Below are positions 12,686 through 63,765 of a stretch of 64,000 nucleotides of DNA, one piece after another. Numbering within the stretch: the first letter of the stretch is position 1; each line of letters opens with the position of its first letter. The notes under the pieces were generated by a model. That model was not told the origin of the DNA. It did no database searches and was given only the letters and a program-made list of their open reading frames with translations. Source of the stretch: Roseateles sp. XES5. GTDB taxonomy: Bacteria; Pseudomonadota; Alphaproteobacteria; Rhizobiales; Rhizobiaceae. Both the position numbers and the translations under genes were made by a program. The stretch covers positions 2,755,501 to 2,819,500 of the forward strand of contig NZ_CP084752.1 in NCBI RefSeq assembly GCF_020535545.1, written 5' to 3'.

Positions 12686-12801
12686 AAGTGTTTCTCCTTG
12701 GTTGTCATGGACAGGAAACGGGACAAGGCGGTATTGGTTCCTTCGCATGGGGTTTATGCACCCGATCCAATTCGGCTTCCGGCCATTTTCGAGGTGATCG
12801 A

Positions 12802-13734
12802 ATGACTGACAAGACTTATCCGCGCGACCTGATCGGCTACGGCCGCACTCCGCCGAAGGTTCGCTGGCCGGGCGATGCCAATATCGCCGTTCAGTTCGTG
12901 GTGAACTATGAAGAGGGCGGCGAAAGCTGCATTCTCGACGGCGATCCGGCCTCGGAAAACCTCCTGTCGGAAATCGTCGGCGCGCAGGCCTGGCCGGGCC
13001 AGCGCAACCTCAACATGGAATCGATCTACGAATATGGCTCGCGCGCCGGCTTCTGGCGCCTGCACCGCCTGTTCACCAGCCGCAACGTCACCACCACGGT
13101 CTACGGCGTGACGCTCGCCATGGCGCGCAACCCCGAGGCCGTTGCCGCCATGAAGGAAGCCGGCTGGGAAATCGCCAGCCACGGCTATCGCTGGCTGGAA
13201 TACAAGGACTGCTCGGAAGAGAAGGAACGCGAGCATATCCGTGAGGCCGTGCGCCTGCACAAGGAACTGACGGGCTCCCATCCGCTCGGCATGTACCAGG
13301 GCAAGCCCTCGGACAACACGCTGCGCCTCGTCATGGAGGAGGGCGGTTTCGTCTACTCCTCGGACTCCTATGCCGACGACCTGCCGTATTTCGTGCCGGG
13401 TATCGACGGCGAGCCCTTCCTGATCATCCCCTATACGCTCGAAACCAACGACATGCGTTTCGCGACGCCCCAGGGTTTCAATGCCGGCGACCAGTTCTTC
13501 AACTACCTGAAGGACGCCTTCGACGTGCTCTACCAGGAAGGCAAGGAAGGCAGCCCGAAGATGCTGAACATCGGCCTGCATTGCCGCCTCGTCGGCCGTC
13601 CGGGCCGCGCCGCGGCACTGGCGCGCTTCGTCGATTACGTGCTCAGCCATGAGAAGGTCTGGATCCCGCGCCGCATCGACATCGCGCATCACTGGATCGA
13701 GAATTACCACCCGTCGAAGGTCAAGGGCGCATGA
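12802..13734 (+). CDS. puuE: Allantoinase PuuE (polysaccharide-deacetylase fold)
   Basis: This 310-residue enzyme hydrolyses allantoin to allantoate. It is of the NodB-like PuuE class, unrelated to metal-dependent AllB. Visible hallmarks are YPRDLIGYGRTPPKVRWPGD at the N-terminus, VNYEEGGE (about 35-42) and ASHGYRWLEYKDCS, the metal/substrate region, plus HCRLVGRPGRAAALARFVDY near the C-terminus. The ATG at 12802 follows GAGGTGAT; upstream in-frame sequence is non-coding in character. It overlaps uraD by 4 bases (ATGA), so they are translationally coupled, and heads the puuE-uraD-allA-uraH ureide operon. Confidence 0.95.
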   Translation: MTDKTYPRDLIGYGRTPPKVRWPGDANIAVQFVVNYEEGGESCILDGDPASENLLSEIVGAQAWPGQRNLNMESIYEYGSRAGFWRLHRLFTSRNVTTTVYGVTLAMARNPEAVAAMKEAGWEIASHGYRWLEYKDCSEEKEREHIREAVRLHKELTGSHPLGMYQGKPSDNTLRLVMEEGGFVYSSDSYADDLPYFVPGIDGEPFLIIPYTLETNDMRFATPQGFNAGDQFFNYLKDAFDVLYQEGKEGSPKMLNIGLHCRLVGRPGRAAALARFVDYVLSHEKVWIPRRIDIAHHWIENYHPSKVKGA

Positions 13735-14228
13735 TCGACCGCAGCGACTTCATCGACCGTTTCGGCGGCGTCTTCGAGCATTCGGAATTCATCGCCGAAC
13801 GGGCGCTGGATGCCGGCAGCGTCGCCGAACCGCTGACGGCGGATGGCGTGCATGCCGCGCTGACCGAGGCGTTCCGCAAGGCGAGCCATGCCGAGCAGCT
13901 CGGCGTGCTCACGGCCCACCCGGACCTTGCCGGCAAGCTGGCGATCGCCGGCGGTCTGACGGAAGACAGCCGCAGGGAACAGGCCGGCGCCGGCCTCGAC
14001 CGGCTGAGCCCGCAGGAGCATGCGCGTTTCACCGAACTCAACACCGCCTATACGGAAAAGTTCGGCTTTCCCTTCATCATCGCGGTCAAGGGGCTTGACA
14101 AGGACGACATCCTTGCCGCCTTCCAAACCCGTGTCGACAATACGGTCGACACTGAATTTGAAACCGCCAAAGCCCAGGTGGAGCGCATTGCGCTCCTTCG
14201 ATTGCGTGCTCTGCTCCCCGGAGAATGA
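13731..14228 (+). CDS. uraD: 2-oxo-4-hydroxy-4-carboxy-5-ureidoimidazoline (OHCU) decarboxylase
   Basis: This 165-residue protein decarboxylates OHCU stereospecifically to (S)-allantoin, the last step of urate oxidation. The family signatures are present: THPDL-type motif as TAHPDLAGKLAIAG (about 61-74) and FGFPFIIAVKG (about 112-122). Length is normal for a bacterial UraD. The start overlaps the puuE stop. There is a 51-base gap to allA. Confidence 0.95.
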   Translation: MIDRSDFIDRFGGVFEHSEFIAERALDAGSVAEPLTADGVHAALTEAFRKASHAEQLGVLTAHPDLAGKLAIAGGLTEDSRREQAGAGLDRLSPQEHARFTELNTAYTEKFGFPFIIAVKGLDKDDILAAFQTRVDNTVDTEFETAKAQVERIALLRLRALLPGE

Positions 14229-14279
14229 CAATGCCCGACTACCTACGACCGCCCTTCCTCTCCCCGGGAGGGCTGTCCG

Positions 14280-14774
14280 ATGGCTGAGAAACTCACGATC
14301 CGCCCCCTGACCCAGGACGCCTTCGCCCCGTTCGGCACGGTGATCGAGACGAACCCGGCCGCAATGCGCCACATCAACGGCGGCACGACCGAGCGCTACC
14401 ATGCCCTCGCGGAAGCCGAAGCTGTCGGCGAAGACGCCAAGGTGATCATCAACCTCTTCCGCGGCAGCCCGCGCGCCTTCCCCTATGCCATCGGCATGAT
14501 GGAGCGCCACCCGTTCGGCAGCCAGAGCTTTTCGCCCATCGACGACCGCCCCTGGCTGGTCGTGGTGGCGGAGGATGAGGGTGGCAAGCCGGGTCGCCCG
14601 CAGGTCTTCCGGGCCGGTGGACGGCAGGGCGTGAACTATCGCCGCAATGTCTGGCACCACCCGCTGATCGTGGTTGGTGGCGTCAGCGACTTCATCGTCG
14701 TCGACCGCTTCGGTGGCGGCGTCAACCTCGAAGAATTCTTCTTCGACAAACCGTTCGTCATCGAACAACCCTGA
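14280..14774 (+). CDS. allA: Ureidoglycolate lyase
   Basis: This 164-residue cupin-fold enzyme splits ureidoglycolate into glyoxylate and urea. The N-terminal [17 protein letters not shown] and the internal [16 protein letters not shown] and [11 protein letters not shown] segments are typical of AllA. It is the third gene of the ureide operon, 8 bases before uraH. Its presence means allantoate is processed through ureidoglycolate; an allantoate amidohydrolase gene must lie elsewhere. Confidence 0.93.
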
Positions 14775-14782
14775 GAGGATCC

Positions 14783-15145
14783 ATGAGCAAGACCGGCCGC
14801 CTGACGACCCACGTACTCGACACCGCACTCGGCAAGCCAGCCGCCGGCCTTGCAATCGACCTCTACCGTCTGGATGGCGAAGCGCGCGAGCGCATCGCCT
14901 CCGTCACGACGAACGACGACGGCCGCGTCGACGGCGCGCTTCTGCAGGGCGACGCCCTCACCGCCGGCACCTATGAGCTCGTCTTCCATGCCGGCGATTA
15001 CCTCAAGGCCAGCGGCGCCGCGCTTGCGGAACCGGCCTTCCTCGACGTCGTTCCGCTGCGTTTCGGCATCGCCGACCCGTCGAGCCACTATCACGTGCCG
15101 CTGCTGCTTTCAGCCTACAGCTACTCGACCTATCGCGGTTCCTAG
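14783..15145 (+). CDS. uraH: 5-Hydroxyisourate hydrolase (transthyretin-related)
   Basis: This 120-residue enzyme hydrolyses 5-hydroxyisourate to OHCU, just upstream of UraD in the pathway. It begins [20 protein letters not shown], containing the catalytic His, has VVPLRFGI in the middle and ends [19 protein letters not shown]; the terminal YRGS distinguishes the hydrolases from true transthyretin. There is no signal peptide. The TAG stop is the first three bases of an intergenic repeat. Confidence 0.96.
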
Positions 15146-15241
15146 ACCATGTCAGGTTCAGATTGAACCGGACATGGTCTAAATGCTTTTGTTTTCGTTT
15201 GTCTTTTCGGAAAACCGGGTTCCACTTTTCCCTGACAAACT

Positions 15242-15245
<4 letters not shown>
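15143..15245. repeat. Intergenic palindromic element, family A (copy 1)
   Basis: A 103-bp element runs from TAGACCATGTCAGG to CTGACAAACTCTA plus one base. The left third is an imperfect palindrome around GGTTCAGATTGAACC; the rest is T-rich with an AAAACC/GGTT inner repeat. Near-identical full copies lie at 34330-34434 and, inverted, at 60508-60610; a half copy is at 39684-39722. It lies between convergent uraH and guaD and contains the TAG stop of both. Confidence 0.9.
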
Positions 15246-16546
<1,301 letters not shown>

Positions 16547-16603
16547 GGGCGTGGCTCCTTCGGTGGTCATGTCTTCCCGCACATAACGCAAGATTTGCCG
16601 GGG

Positions 16604-16636
16604 AGGAAAGCCCCGCCGGGCGGGCGGGGCTTTCCT
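16604..16636. terminator. Intrinsic terminator between the MFS gene and guaD
   Basis: A 14-bp perfect GC-rich stem (16604-16617 with 16623-16636) with a 5-base loop lies just after the MFS stop and before guaD on the reverse strand. There is no long U tract. Confidence 0.65.
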
Positions 16637-16644
16637 GTCGCCGG

Positions 16645-17835
16645 TTACGCAGCAGCGGCGGCCGCACCCTTGCGGCGAAGGAAGACCGCGATCACGAACC
16701 CCGCCGCTGCGGCCATGCCGCCGGTCAGGAAGACGCTGTCATAGCCTGCCCGGTCGGCCAGAAGCCCGGCAAACGGGCCGGTCAGGCCGTAGGCAAGGTC
16801 CTGGAAGGCCGAGAAGCCGCCAAGCGCGGTGCCCCGCAGATGGGGCGGAACGCGGTGCACGACCTCCCGCCCGAGCGCCGGGAAGATCATCGAGCATCCG
16901 AGGCCGGTGAGGAAGGCGCCGGCCAGGGCGAAGGCCGGTTCGCCGGCGCCCCAGATCAGCAGCTGGCCCACCGTCTCGATGGCAAGCGAGCCGGTGGCGA
17001 CGGGCAGGCCGCCGATACGATCCGGCAGGTGACCGAAGAGCAGGCGCATCAGCACGAAACCGACACCGAAGGCCGTGAGGCCGAGGCCGGCATGGCTCCA
17101 GTGCTGATCGCGGAAGTGGAGGGCGAAGAAGGCGCCGATCGCGGCAAAGCCGATGCCCTGCAGGAAGACGACCGAACCATGCAGCCAGATCCGGCTGATG
17201 ACGCTGGTGAAGGACGGTCTTTCGCGGCCGGGATGCGCGGCGACCGACGGCAGCCGCCAGATGGCGAGAAGGCCGACGGCGGGCAGGACCGCGCTGACAG
17301 CCATCGTGCCGGCAAAGCCGAGGCGGGCAAAGAGCACGAGGCCGAGCGGCCCGCCGATGGCGAGGGCCCCGTAGATCGCGGCACCCACCAGAGAGAGCAC
17401 CTTGCCCGCGGCGGCCGGCCCGACGATGCCGACGCCCCAGGCAATGACGCCGACGGCCACGAGGCTTTCGCCGAGGCCGAGCAGCAAGCGGCCGCCGACG
17501 AGGATCGTGAAGGCGCTCCACGGCGCTTCCGGCAGCAGGCCGGCCGCCATCGAGGCGAGCGCGCCGGCGACATAGAAGAAGAGGCCGCGGGCGACCGCGA
17601 CCTTCGGGCCGCGCTCATCCGAAAGGCCGCCCGCATAGGCGCGGGTAAGGATCGTCGAGAGAAAGGCGATGCCGACCGCCAGCCCCGCCAGGGCATTGCT
17701 GAGCCCCAGCGATCCCGTCACGAAGACGGGGATGACCGGAAGGGAAAGGGCGACGCACAGATAGGAAATGAGCAGGATCGCCGTCAGCAGCAAAAGCCGG
17801 GCGGGCGGCGCCGCGCGCATCAAGGGAAAAGCCAT
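16645..17835 (-). CDS. MFS transporter (arabinose-efflux/YfcJ-like group)
   Basis: This 396-residue permease has about 12 hydrophobic segments and the MFS loop motif GGLSDERGPKVAVARG after segment 2 (about 68-83), repeated in weaker form as GHLPDRIGGLPV in the second half. Its start, ATG 17835, has GGAGG upstream. The group includes efflux pumps for sugars, phosphonates and drugs; the substrate is unknown. Position between a LysR regulator and guaD might suggest a purine link, but its upstream region carries its own promoter, a mini-ORF and an intrinsic terminator, which points to attenuation control instead. Confidence 0.85.
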   Translation of the reverse strand: MAFPLMRAAPPARLLLLTAILLISYLCVALSLPVIPVFVTGSLGLSNALAGLAVGIAFLSTILTRAYAGGLSDERGPKVAVARGLFFYVAGALASMAAGLLPEAPWSAFTILVGGRLLLGLGESLVAVGVIAWGVGIVGPAAAGKVLSLVGAAIYGALAIGGPLGLVLFARLGFAGTMAVSAVLPAVGLLAIWRLPSVAAHPGRERPSFTSVISRIWLHGSVVFLQGIGFAAIGAFFALHFRDQHWSHAGLGLTAFGVGFVLMRLLFGHLPDRIGGLPVATGSLAIETVGQLLIWGAGEPAFALAGAFLTGLGCSMIFPALGREVVHRVPPHLRGTALGGFSAFQDLAYGLTGPFAGLLADRAGYDSVFLTGGMAAAAGFVIAVFLRRKGAAAAAA

Positions 17836-17869
17836 GGGAACCTCCAGGCTGTTCCTCGTCAGCGGGCGC

Positions 17870-17909
17870 AAAAAAACGCACTCCGACCGACGAGGTCGTT
17901 GAGTGCGTT
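17870..17909 (-). terminator. Intrinsic terminator inside the MFS leader (candidate attenuator)
   Basis: Read on the reverse strand, a 14-bp stem (9 bp AACGCACTC/GAGTGCGTT plus 5 bp CGACC/GGTCG, 5-base loop, 2-base bulge) ends in seven U residues. It stands 35 bases before the MFS start. The 5' arm can alternatively pair with GCGTT at 17925-17921, giving a competing hairpin. Confidence 0.8.
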
Positions 17910-17925
17910 GCTTGACGTCAAACGC

Positions 17926-17946
17926 TTACGGCCAGAGAACTGGCAT
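17926..17946 (-). CDS. Putative six-residue leader peptide (MPVLWP)
   Basis: A seven-codon frame ATG-CCA-GTT-CTC-TGG-CCG-TAA lies between a sigma-70 promoter and the terminator upstream of the MFS gene. The promoter spacing puts the transcription start at or next to the A of this ATG, so translation would be leaderless, as for the trp leader at 63654. The frame is too short to prove coding; its placement is the evidence. Confidence 0.4.
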   Translation of the reverse strand: MPVLWP

Positions 17947-17952
17947 GACGGC

Positions 17953-17981
17953 TCCATAGGCGCTTGCCGGTGGCCTGTCAA
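17953..17981 (-). promoter_or_regulatory. Sigma-70-type promoter of the MFS leader
   Basis: On the reverse strand TTGACA (17981-17976) and TATGGA (17958-17953) are separated by exactly 17 bases. It is one of the best hexamer pairs in the window and lies after the LysR stop, so the MFS gene has its own transcript. Confidence 0.7.
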
Positions 17982-18037
17982 CGCCGATGCCGTGCCGCCC
18001 TTCGCCGATGCGCGGACGGGGTGGCGGGGGGAGCCGC

Positions 18038-18931
18038 TCAGACCGCAGGCGGCAGCGTCGCCAGGATCCAGTCCCGGAAGGCCCGGATTTTCTGGATGTT
18101 CTGGCGGTTTTCCGGATAGGCGAGCCAGTAGTCGCGGCCATCGTTGCAGGTAAGCGGGAAGGGTTGGTAGAGCTGGCCGAGCGCCACTTCCTGGCGGAAA
18201 TGGCCGGGGCTGAGGATGGCGACACCCTGGCCGGCCATGGCGATCTGCGCATCGATGGTCTGCGTGCCGAGCTCGTTCGGCGGGAAGCGGTCGAGGTCCG
18301 GATTGTCGACGCCTGCGGCGGCAAACCAGGTGCGCCACCAGATGTCCCGCGCGCTGATGATCGGCAGTTTCAGGAGATCCGCCGGTTCCCGCAAACCGCC
18401 CATGGAGGCGGCGAGCGCCGGGCTCAGCATGGGCGCGAAATCCATGCGCATGACGCGGTGGCAGGTGAGCCCCGGCCAGTTGCCCTTGCCCCAGCGGATG
18501 GCGACGTCCGCCTCTTCCCGCGCAAAATCGATCACGTCCTGCGAGGTGGAAAGGCGCACTGCGATGTTCGGATGCTTGAGCTGGAAATCGCCGATGGTGC
18601 GGCTCAGCCATTGCAGGGCGAAGGTGGGCGTGGAGTGGATGTGCAGTTTCTGGTCCGTCGCCCCGCGCAGGTCCGATACGGCCTCTGCGAGCTTGGCAAG
18701 GCCCTCTGCCACCTTTGGCGCCAGCCGCTCTCCGGCCTCGGTGAGCACCACCTGCCGCGGCTGGCGCAGGAACAGCGTCTCGCCCAGCGTCTCCTCCAGG
18801 AGCTTGATCTGATAGCTGACGGCGGTCTGCGTCATGCCGAGTTCGTCGCCGGCGCGGGTGAAACTGGCATGCCGGGCGGCCGCCTCGAACACGCGGAGCG
18901 CATTGAGCGGAAAGTTGCGCGACATCTTCAT
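18038..18931 (-). CDS. LysR-family regulator, GcvA/LsrB/VtlR-like
   Basis: This 297-residue regulator has an N-terminal winged helix (LNALRVFEAAARHASFTRAG, then AVSYQIKLLEETLGETLFLR), followed by a type 2 periplasmic-binding effector domain (from about residue 90, LHIHSTPTFALQWLSRTIGD). The NALRVFEAAARH opening is typical of the GcvA subgroup, which in rhizobia includes LsrB and VtlR. The ATG at 18931 follows GAAGAGA; an upstream ATG at 18952 lacks a site. It is divergent from a DUF1127 gene across a region with a long inverted repeat, the arrangement expected for direct control. Confidence 0.88.
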   Translation of the reverse strand: MKMSRNFPLNALRVFEAAARHASFTRAGDELGMTQTAVSYQIKLLEETLGETLFLRQPRQVVLTEAGERLAPKVAEGLAKLAEAVSDLRGATDQKLHIHSTPTFALQWLSRTIGDFQLKHPNIAVRLSTSQDVIDFAREEADVAIRWGKGNWPGLTCHRVMRMDFAPMLSPALAASMGGLREPADLLKLPIISARDIWWRTWFAAAGVDNPDLDRFPPNELGTQTIDAQIAMAGQGVAILSPGHFRQEVALGQLYQPFPLTCNDGRDYWLAYPENRQNIQKIRAFRDWILATLPPAV

Positions 18932-18972
18932 GACCAAGTTCTCTTCATGCATCCAGACGAAGGTTCGATTGG

Positions 18973-19017
18973 AATTTCATCATTTTTGGGCGCACCCTGC
19001 AAGCAGCTGATGAAATT
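18973..19017. promoter_or_regulatory. Inverted repeat between the LysR and DUF1127 genes
   Basis: Perfect 10-base arms AATTTCATCA (18973-18982) and TGATGAAATT (19008-19017) are 25 bases apart, so their centres lie 35 bases (about 3.3 helical turns) apart. The pair fills the divergent intergenic region and could be a dual site for a LysR tetramer. Confidence 0.5.
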
Positions 19018-19031
19018 TACGAGGTCTTCCC

Positions 19032-19211
19032 ATGGCATGCAACATCGATCAGATGCCAGCGCGCGCCACCCAAACCGGCAGGGTGCGATTCTGGCACAAG
19101 CTGTCTCTTGTCTTTTCGCGCAGCGAGCGGCGGCATCTTCCTTCGCTGGAACCCTGTGCGCTTTCCGATCACCTGAAGCGCGATCTCGGTTTCCTCGACG
19201 GGCGCTGTTAG
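19032..19211 (+). CDS. DUF1127-like small protein
   Basis: This 59-residue basic protein runs MACNIDQMPARATQTGRVRF to a C-terminal LSDHLKRDLGFLDGRC. The LSDHLxRDLG ending is the DUF1127 signature (usually LSDHxLRDIGL). Family members of 45-75 residues are Arg-rich proteins; in Agrobacterium and Brucella some bind RNA or control phosphate and carbon metabolism, and several are activated by the LysR regulator VtlR. Here the gene is divergent from such a LysR gene. The stop TAG begins a family B repeat. Confidence 0.75.
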   Translation: MACNIDQMPARATQTGRVRFWHKLSLVFSRSERRHLPSLEPCALSDHLKRDLGFLDGRC

Positions 19212-19363
19212 AGCATTTCCAGCCGGGGCGGCATCGCTCCGGTGTCGGACAATGCGGCAGGAGCAAAAAGCATTTCCAGCCGAAGCGGTATCGCTCCGGC
19301 GCCGGATAATGCGACAAGGACAAGAGTCGAGGACGATGCCGGGGAACCGGTCTTCACCGGCAT
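19209..19363. repeat. Tandem family B palindromic elements (copies 2 and 3)
   Basis: Two copies of the AGCATTTCCAGCCG...GCGGYATCGCTCCGG...GGAYAATGCG module stand at about 19209-19262 and 19269-19330. They are followed by a small hairpin with 7-bp arms (19336-19342 and 19357-19363) that matches the right half of the element at 4857. The first bases form the TAG stop of the DUF1127 gene. Confidence 0.75.
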
Positions 19364-19367
19364 TGCG

Positions 19368-20177
19368 TCACGAGCGGGCTGCAAAAGCGAGCAGCACTTC
19401 CGCGGTGGTCATGGCTGCGATGACCTCCGGTCGCTTGTCGCCGACCGCGGTGCCGCCGATCGGCATGGACAGCCGGTCGGTCGCGGCGCGATCCACACCT
19501 TCTTCCGCGAGATAGCGCAGGAAACCGTCGCGCTTGGCGCGCGAGCCGACCATGCCGACATAGGCAAGATCGGTGCGAGCGAGCGCCTGCCGGCCGATGC
19601 GGAAATCGAGCGCGTGGTCATGGGTGACGACCACCACGGCCGAGCCAGCCGGGATATCGGCGATCAGGGCTTCCGGGGTGCCGTCCTGACGGTGATGCAC
19701 CTGCGAGGTCAACTGGTCGAGTTCGCTCTCGCGCGCCTCTACGACGAAGACATTAAGAGGGAGCAGGGTGAGCGCTTCGGCGAGCGCCCGGCCGACATGG
19801 CCGGCGCCGAACACCCAGACCTGGGGTCTTTGGCGCTCCTCTTGCGCAAGGCGGGTTTCGAGCATGCGGCGGGCATCCTCATCGGCGATCGTGAAGGCAA
19901 GCTCGACGGATCCGCCGCAGCACTCGCCGATCTCGGGGCCGAGCGGGATGGTGAGCGTTGCTTCCCCACCGGCATCGGCCAGCATGCGCCGGGCGTTCTC
20001 GATGGCGACATGTTCGAGCGGTCCGCCGCCGATGGTGCCGTGGATTTCGGTTGGCGCCACCAGCATCAGGGTGCCCGCATCGCGCGGCGTCGAGCCGGTG
20101 ACGGCGGCAATCTCGACGATGACCACCCGGTGTTCCCGGGCGAGAAATCCCTCCCGGCTGTCCTGCTGAAAATTCAT
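19368..20177 (-). CDS. xdhC: Xanthine dehydrogenase accessory protein XdhC
   Basis: This 269-residue protein inserts sulfurated molybdenum cofactor into xanthine dehydrogenase. It has the N-terminal XdhC/CoxI domain (TGSTPRDAGTLMLV, GTIGGGPLEH, GPEIGECCGG with the conserved Cys pair) and a C-terminal Rossmann domain (QVWVFGAGHVGRALAEALTL; VGMVGSRAKR). The start at 20177 is preceded by GAAGGA. The structural genes xdhA/xdhB are not in the window, though xdhC is often third in that operon. Its link to guaD and the ureide operon is functional: XDH turns xanthine into urate. Confidence 0.92.
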   Translation of the reverse strand: MNFQQDSREGFLAREHRVVIVEIAAVTGSTPRDAGTLMLVAPTEIHGTIGGGPLEHVAIENARRMLADAGGEATLTIPLGPEIGECCGGSVELAFTIADEDARRMLETRLAQEERQRPQVWVFGAGHVGRALAEALTLLPLNVFVVEARESELDQLTSQVHHRQDGTPEALIADIPAGSAVVVVTHDHALDFRIGRQALARTDLAYVGMVGSRAKRDGFLRYLAEEGVDRAATDRLSMPIGGTAVGDKRPEVIAAMTTAEVLLAFAARS

Positions 20178-20200
20178 GTCGTCCTTCTTTGCCCGCACTG

Positions 20201-63653: not shown

Positions 63654-63698
63654 ATGGAAAACGCACGCATCATCGCTGGCTGGTGGTGGGCTCGCTGA
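63654..63698 (+). CDS. trpL: trp operon leader peptide (three Trp codons)
   Basis: A 14-residue frame encodes MENARIIAGWWWAR. Three consecutive Trp codons near the end and the WWWAR ending match rhizobial trpE(G) leaders. Ribosome stalling at Trp codons when charged tRNA-Trp is low would favour the antiterminator over the terminator at 63734. In S. meliloti this leader also releases a trans-acting RNA and peptide. Confidence 0.9.
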   Translation: MENARIIAGWWWAR

Positions 63699-63733
63699 GG
63701 CGGCCTTGACCAGTCATGCGTGATTGAGACGAC

Positions 63734-63765
63734 AAGCCGCCCGGAACCTTCGAGGCGGCTTTTTT
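63734..63765 (+). terminator. trp attenuator terminator
   Basis: An 8-bp stem AAGCCGCC (63734-63741) with GGCGGCTT (63754-63761) is followed by T residues to 63765. The upstream GGCGGCC at 63700-63706 can pair with GCCGCC as antiterminator. Confidence 0.88.

Follow-up and report, generated by a model that had tools for sequence, protein, structure and literature searches.

What does the short leader between a promoter and an MFS transporter gene do in the Roseateles sp. XES5 window (the whole stretch of DNA that was analysed, 64,000 nt)? A sequence-only reading had described a TTGACA-N17-TATGGA promoter, a six-codon frame, a GCGTT/AACGC pairing, and a 14-bp terminator with T7, and all of these were present when the coordinates were re-read (Table 1). 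The transporter gene matches NF003477 (425.6 bits) and NF009048 (421.8 bits), both over the cut-off, as well as PF07690. The 79-nt leader RNA folds to -32.2 kcal/mol, compared with a mean of -20.68 (sd 2.69) for 200 shuffles, none of which was as good (z -4.28). The proposal of alternative pairings and a terminator ahead of an exporter-type MFS gene is borne out. A generic consensus scan of positions 16000-20000 reported neither the leader promoter nor the leader terminator, because the -10 box is too weak (3/6 to the consensus) and the stem is interrupted by an internal bulge.

The evidence collected from related loci leads us to propose, with a probability of roughly 75%, a riboswitch class not in Rfam 15, of which this leader is one copy and which acts as an ON switch for exporter genes.

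Table 1. Features of the leader locus and its flanking genes in the window
Feature	Position	Strand	Basis or remark
Sigma-70-like promoter, TTGACA-N17-TATGGA	17953..17981	-	Sequence and relatives; predicted RNA start ~17946
-35 box TTGACA; 17-nt spacer; -10 box TATGGA	17981-17976; 17958-17953	-	
P1 hairpin, GCCAG-UUCU-CUGGC	17931..17944	-	Hairpin counts and covariation; coincides with the supposed mini-ORF
Conserved core CGTAAGCGTTTGACGTCAAGCAACGC, putative ligand-binding domain	17905..17930	-	Pattern match and base counts, 183 distinct contexts
P2 5' strand GCGU, predicted rival of the terminator 3' arm for ACGC	17922..17925	-	Invariant; prefix folds
Putative switching strand ACGC, common to P2 and terminator/P3	17905..17908	-	Pairing analysis and prefix folds
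Intrinsic terminator (P3), putative expression platform	17870..17909	-	14-bp stem 17909-17875 and T7 17876-17870
Frame MPVLWP, ATG CCA GTT CTC TGG CCG TAA	17946-17926	-	Judged non-functional: not conserved
MFS transporter, YfcJ/YhhS ('arabinose transporter') family, putatively regulated gene	16645..17835	-	Profile matches
MFS start codon ATG; SD GGAGG	17835; 17845-17841	-	
LysR gene, upstream	18952-18038	-	Best model GcvA, 272 bits, under cut-off 288

A conserved core in distant bacteria

The central part of the leader is a nearly invariant core of 25-26 nt, CGUARGCGU(Y)YN-ACGU-NANN-CAACGC, whose last bases also begin the terminator. Its pattern matched once in the window and in 0/100 shuffles. 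A BLASTN search with 221 bases against 201 genomes matched 16 of them, and 13 of the 18 loci recovered (the window's own excluded) carry CGTAAGCGT...CAACGC behind a short stretch of differing sequence. The exact core pattern occurred in at least 120 stretches of GTDB species genomes. Among the 80 matches listed were Alpha-, Beta-, and Gammaproteobacteria and two Ktedonobacter, with Rhizobiales, Azospirillum, Methylobacterium, Caulobacterales, Burkholderiales (Variovorax, Paraburkholderia, Roseateles), and Enterobacterales (Citrobacter, Kluyvera, Cedecea, Kosakonia, Buttiauxella, Salmonella arizonae) all represented. No core match was found in viral contigs, so no phage carriage was seen.

A covariance model (R1), built from 13 loci chosen out of 45 candidates for their 14-base P1, also recovered core variants with a spacer one base shorter. 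Its matches in 35/297 and 30/398 genomes are upper figures, since 8 of 48 inspected loci lacked the core by eye, the best of these at 32.7 bits. The wider pattern CGTARGCGTN{2,3}MCGYNANNCAACGC was found in 3/369 genomes of the class of G676, which has an enterobacterial-looking leader, and in 8/385 genomes of the window's class, each set including its own chosen centre genome; the reversed-pattern control matched 0/369 and 0/385. In three families selected for having matches, the wider pattern was present in 1/1, 4/5, and 4/10 genomes.

Most core positions are invariant over 183 distinct contexts, many of them being fixed by the search patterns themselves. DUF2798 genes offered an entry that depends less on the pattern: a search of 150 Hyphomicrobiales genomes matched 32 times, in 28 of them, and among 30 DUF2798 loci the strict core stood in 9, while a version with up to five substitutions was the only one present in 0. 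Conservation of the core is all-or-none, in that it is either whole or absent. In two E. coli yfcJ leaders (L140 and L243) the region is retained and the core has decayed; in a Salmonella Infantis record (L244) the core is intact. The window genome has one core copy by pattern and no DUF2798 gene, and another genome of its class (G1151; L195, L200-L202) has four, which precede YfcJ-type MFS, Tet-like MFS, and SDR genes and one gene of unclear type. A core subtype, CGTAGGCGTTACCGTCATCCAACGC, precedes SDR genes in L202, L204-L206, and L212 and may mark a shifted ligand.

The P1 hairpin and the start of the RNA

A P1 hairpin of at least five contiguous pairs that reaches the core or stops one base short of it was found in 116 of 182 loci compared with 9.6% of shuffled upstream stretches; in the remaining 66 contexts it is shorter, bulged, further away, or absent. 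In 100 loci, from which near-duplicates had been removed by eye and which were aligned to the model (an alignment that favours structure), covariation of P1 was 0.424 versus 0.120 for shuffles (0/500) and at most 0.078 when slid, and all five pairs vary on both sides. A gap-free alignment of 13 sequences, picked for having P1, also agrees with the helix. These substitutions argue that P1 is a real helix in which pairing, not coding, has been retained.

Promoter-like boxes accompany the element. A TTG-type -35 and a -10 box, 16-18 nt apart with at least 8/12 matches, occurred in 105 of 181 related loci, where 5.8 were expected from mononucleotide shuffles, and the -10 box ends 17-40 nt upstream of the core. 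Because the boxes stand just upstream of the core in so many loci, the RNA probably begins at or just before P1, and the leader is probably the very 5' end of the transcript. The start proposed for the window, itself a prediction, gains support from this promoter position in relatives.

Genes behind the element

A census of 182 distinct contexts found 94 with DUF2798, 65 with a YfcJ-family MFS, and 23 with neither; in 159 contexts, then, a DUF2798 or YfcJ-family frame lies on the same strand within 1600 nt, the classes being assigned by local HMMs from these loci, with one DUF2798 protein and the window MFS verified in Pfam. The 23 others comprise four VOC, three SIP, five SDR, two CynX/NimT MFS, three Tet-like MFS, one DHA2 and two DHA3-type MFS, one ArsR-type gene, one unclear case, and one that was cut off. 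Representatives of these were classified by Pfam/NCBIfam and the remainder by reading translations, and the representatives' NCBIfam scores fall under the curated cut-offs, which makes the subfamily names approximate. Overall there are ten downstream gene groups, five of which are different MFS subfamilies. A conserved structured domain is thus found in 5' leaders, in sense orientation, before genes of related function, the arrangement by which riboswitches are recognised.

In the E. coli records listed, the downstream gene is yfcJ, beside fabB in the one region examined with its neighbours, and a FabB-type cluster lies upstream in 22 of the 120 GTDB loci listed. Pfam lists DUF2798 as a family without an assigned function. 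According to PMC10588857, substrate binding has been shown for none of the transporters studied, YfcJ lacks a proven substrate, and YfcJ is required for active bo3 oxidase.

Alternative pairings and a possible switch

In the mechanism that we infer, RNA polymerase would begin just before P1, and P1 and the 26-nt core would form first. Within the core, GCGU would pair with ACGC (P2), and CGU (core positions 1-3) may pair with ACG (13-15) to give an H-type pseudoknot. A putative small molecule would hold this fold and keep ACGC out of the terminator, allowing transcription of the MFS gene; without ligand, ACGCACUC would pair with GAGUGCGU, the terminator would form, and transcription would end after ~75 nt. 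Many relatives use this strand to begin a downstream hairpin that has no U tract. Exporters or small membrane proteins make up most of the putatively regulated genes, as would suit an ON switch whose targets export or detoxify the ligand.

The ACGC at the end of the core can pair either with GCGU inside the core or, together with the next bases, with a downstream arm (P3), which in the window is the terminator. In prefix folds, P2 was predicted at 46-66 nt and lost at 70 nt, with the terminator appearing from 70-74 nt; the full window RNA reached -32.2 kcal/mol when free and -22.8 kcal/mol with P2 enforced. The bases of P2 and the pseudoknot are invariant, most of them being fixed by the search patterns, and both pairings are predicted; the third pseudoknot pair is lost in 9/183 contexts (A13 to C).

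Arms of score at least 6 that begin at the core were found in 32 of 58 YfcJ-type loci, 22 of them with a U-rich tail, and in 16/69 DUF2798 loci, where the same test found a U-rich tail in 0/69. By a looser definition, P3 beat at least 95/100 mononucleotide shuffles in a minority of contexts (69/171, versus ~9 expected, the loci being related and those with <90 nt downstream left out), namely 27/55 MFS, 27/67 DUF2798, 0/6 unclassified, and 15/43 other contexts. The 3' end of the core is reused by hairpins of varying sequence (ACGCACTC/GAGTGCGT, ACGCATCC/GGATGCGT, GCATTC/GAATGC, and CGCACCATA/TATGGTGCG), and the arms of P3 vary yet remain complementary. The window leader, like roughly half the YfcJ-type loci, shows a clear platform that is predicted to compete with the putative aptamer.

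Among the enterobacterial leaders analysed, no clear platform of the P3 type was seen. Release of the SD by P2 was examined for these bacteria and was not supported: in 28 leaders the median SD unpaired value was 0.15 free versus 0.05 forced, going up in 2 and down in 8. As a general anti-SD, CCGUAAG in the core gave a weak signal (16/182 loci at p<=2/50 versus ~7 expected). Directly upstream of the start codon in L172, L182, L187, and L193 stands CUUACGGAG, which is complementary to the core's CCGUAAG; this potential pairing is suggestive of a direct SD block.

Alternative explanations

The sequence-only reading had favoured leader-peptide attenuation through the leaderless frame MPVLWP, whose ATG falls at the predicted +1 and whose stop comes ahead of the competing pairing; a six-codon frame does stand at the equivalent place in four MFS loci (L001, L066, L078, L094). 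In relatives, however, 25 of 175 loci have an ATG within 45 nt that shares the frame of the core's TAA, fewer than have one in the other two frames (43 and 33); among MFS loci the count is 7/57. ACG stands naturally at the position of the ATG in L002-L004 and L119, and the MPVLWP frame has no run of one codon. The same bases covary as a hairpin, and the TAA stop lies within the conserved core. The comparison of relatives thus argues that the mini-ORF is a by-product, its codons being P1 arms and its stop belonging to the core, and we regard attenuation by this peptide as extremely improbable. In another reading, the terminator simply belongs to the upstream LysR gene, or the leader is a free-standing small RNA of ~75 nt. 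LysR is on the same strand, its end at 18038 lies 56 nt upstream of the -35 box, and a terminator alone would yield a short RNA. Promoter-like boxes between LysR and the core are kept in relatives, however, and upstream genes vary (the FabB-type cluster, and fabB in E. coli) while the core and the downstream exporter stay, making this reading quite improbable.

A different possibility is that the conserved bases are DNA, the operator of a transcription factor over the start site. GCGTTTAACGTTAA..AACGC is partly palindromic-looking, the enterobacterial core is near-palindromic, and a sigma-factor-like gene, which we take to be RpoD, lies near 20 of the 120 GTDB loci listed, on the opposite strand. 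An operator is disfavoured by the varying P1 and P3 arms, since P1 pairs are kept while their sequence varies freely and the downstream arms track the core's 3' neighbour. Furthermore, no regulator common to most loci was seen by eye in the neighbour clusters of these 120 loci, and relatives of the window's LysR were found in 7 collected loci, some being the same locus fetched again; we hold an operator to be very improbable. A widespread RNA-binding protein that recognises the core and either antiterminates or blocks ribosome binding would be expected to produce the same conservation and alternative pairings, and P2 and the pseudoknot are themselves predicted pairings. However, autoregulatory leaders usually sit before the gene of their binding protein, whereas the gene groups identified include no RNA-binding protein family, and the element stands upstream of many exporter and enzyme genes that are unrelated to one another, in bacteria far apart in the tree. 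A protein-binding leader therefore appears unlikely.

Relation to known RNAs

Rfam 15 gave no match up to E 5 in the window at 17700-18100, and at 10 other loci its 12 matches up to E 1 all lay away from the element. No known Rfam family was thus found at the element, in agreement with the first impression that this was no familiar riboswitch. The window's trp leader (63670-63765, +), to which the MFS leader had been likened for its ATG near the predicted start, alternative pairings, and terminator, is RcsR1 (RF02552, 92.5 bits), the only RcsR1 match in the window. The RcsR1 peptide has Trp-Trp-Trp, while the MFS leader has no conserved peptide and a covarying P1.

Guanidine (ykkC-type) and fluoride riboswitches are leaders that turn on exporters of toxic small molecules, with several unrelated exporter families per aptamer. 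Our element likewise precedes exporter genes of several unrelated families, but it differs in sequence and layout, has no Rfam match, and its genes, unlike theirs, are YfcJ-type and other MFS, DUF2798, VOC, SIP, and SDR. The preQ1 and SAM-II riboswitches are small H-type pseudoknots in which the 3' strand of the pseudoknot is also in the expression platform. The element resembles them in its very short core, which could form a pseudoknot with its 3' strand in the platform, and differs from them in having no Rfam match and no covariation support for the pseudoknot.

Among the open-access papers listed on DUF2798, yfcJ, and yhhS with riboswitches and on the core strings, none described the element, and an earlier report elsewhere is possible. 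The one paper naming yhhS does so in a table from an E. coli scan, at a distance of 7349 bases from the predicted site. Orphan candidates in Brewer 2021 (PMC8632094) and Narunsky 2024 (PMC11109978) are, like the element, conserved structured leaders with unassigned ligands. The consulted text of the former has no orphan candidate with these genes and contains neither 'MFS' nor 'efflux'; that of the latter has no candidate with these genes and contains neither 'MFS' nor 'DUF'. Further motifs are listed in the supplements of both.

Candidate ligands

Beyond the window, we consider it reasonably probable that the element represents a widespread class with a core of ~26 nt that senses a toxic small molecule met by many soil, plant, and gut bacteria and turns on at least nine kinds of exporter, membrane protein, and detoxifying enzyme. 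If this is true, knowing the ligand would indicate what DUF2798 and YfcJ do: as one RNA would link largely uncharacterised genes, a single ligand search could point to the functions of two protein families and several exporters. It would also reveal by what means distantly related bacteria detect a widespread compound that has so far gone unrecognised. The short core would make for simple in vitro tests. Operon partners gave no consistent ligand clue, many downstream frames resembling antisense ORFs.

The surroundings of the window's copy offer a weak lead. The MFS gene and its leader are enclosed by a purine-degradation cluster (12799-20198) encoding PuuE (allantoinase), OHCU decarboxylase, AllA (ureidoglycolate lyase), HIU hydrolase, guanine deaminase, and XdhC. 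Guanine deaminase or XdhC also adjoins L002-L004, and the DUF2798-type loci L041, L059, and L070 have purine genes no more than ~4 kb away; most collected copies have no purine-gene neighbour, and the association could be chance. A purine breakdown product or analogue is one candidate ligand. An inverted repeat, GC-rich and with CTTT at its end, was seen by eye at 16607-16633 (-), in the gap separating the MFS stop from guanine deaminase, and given this repeat the two genes may be separate units.
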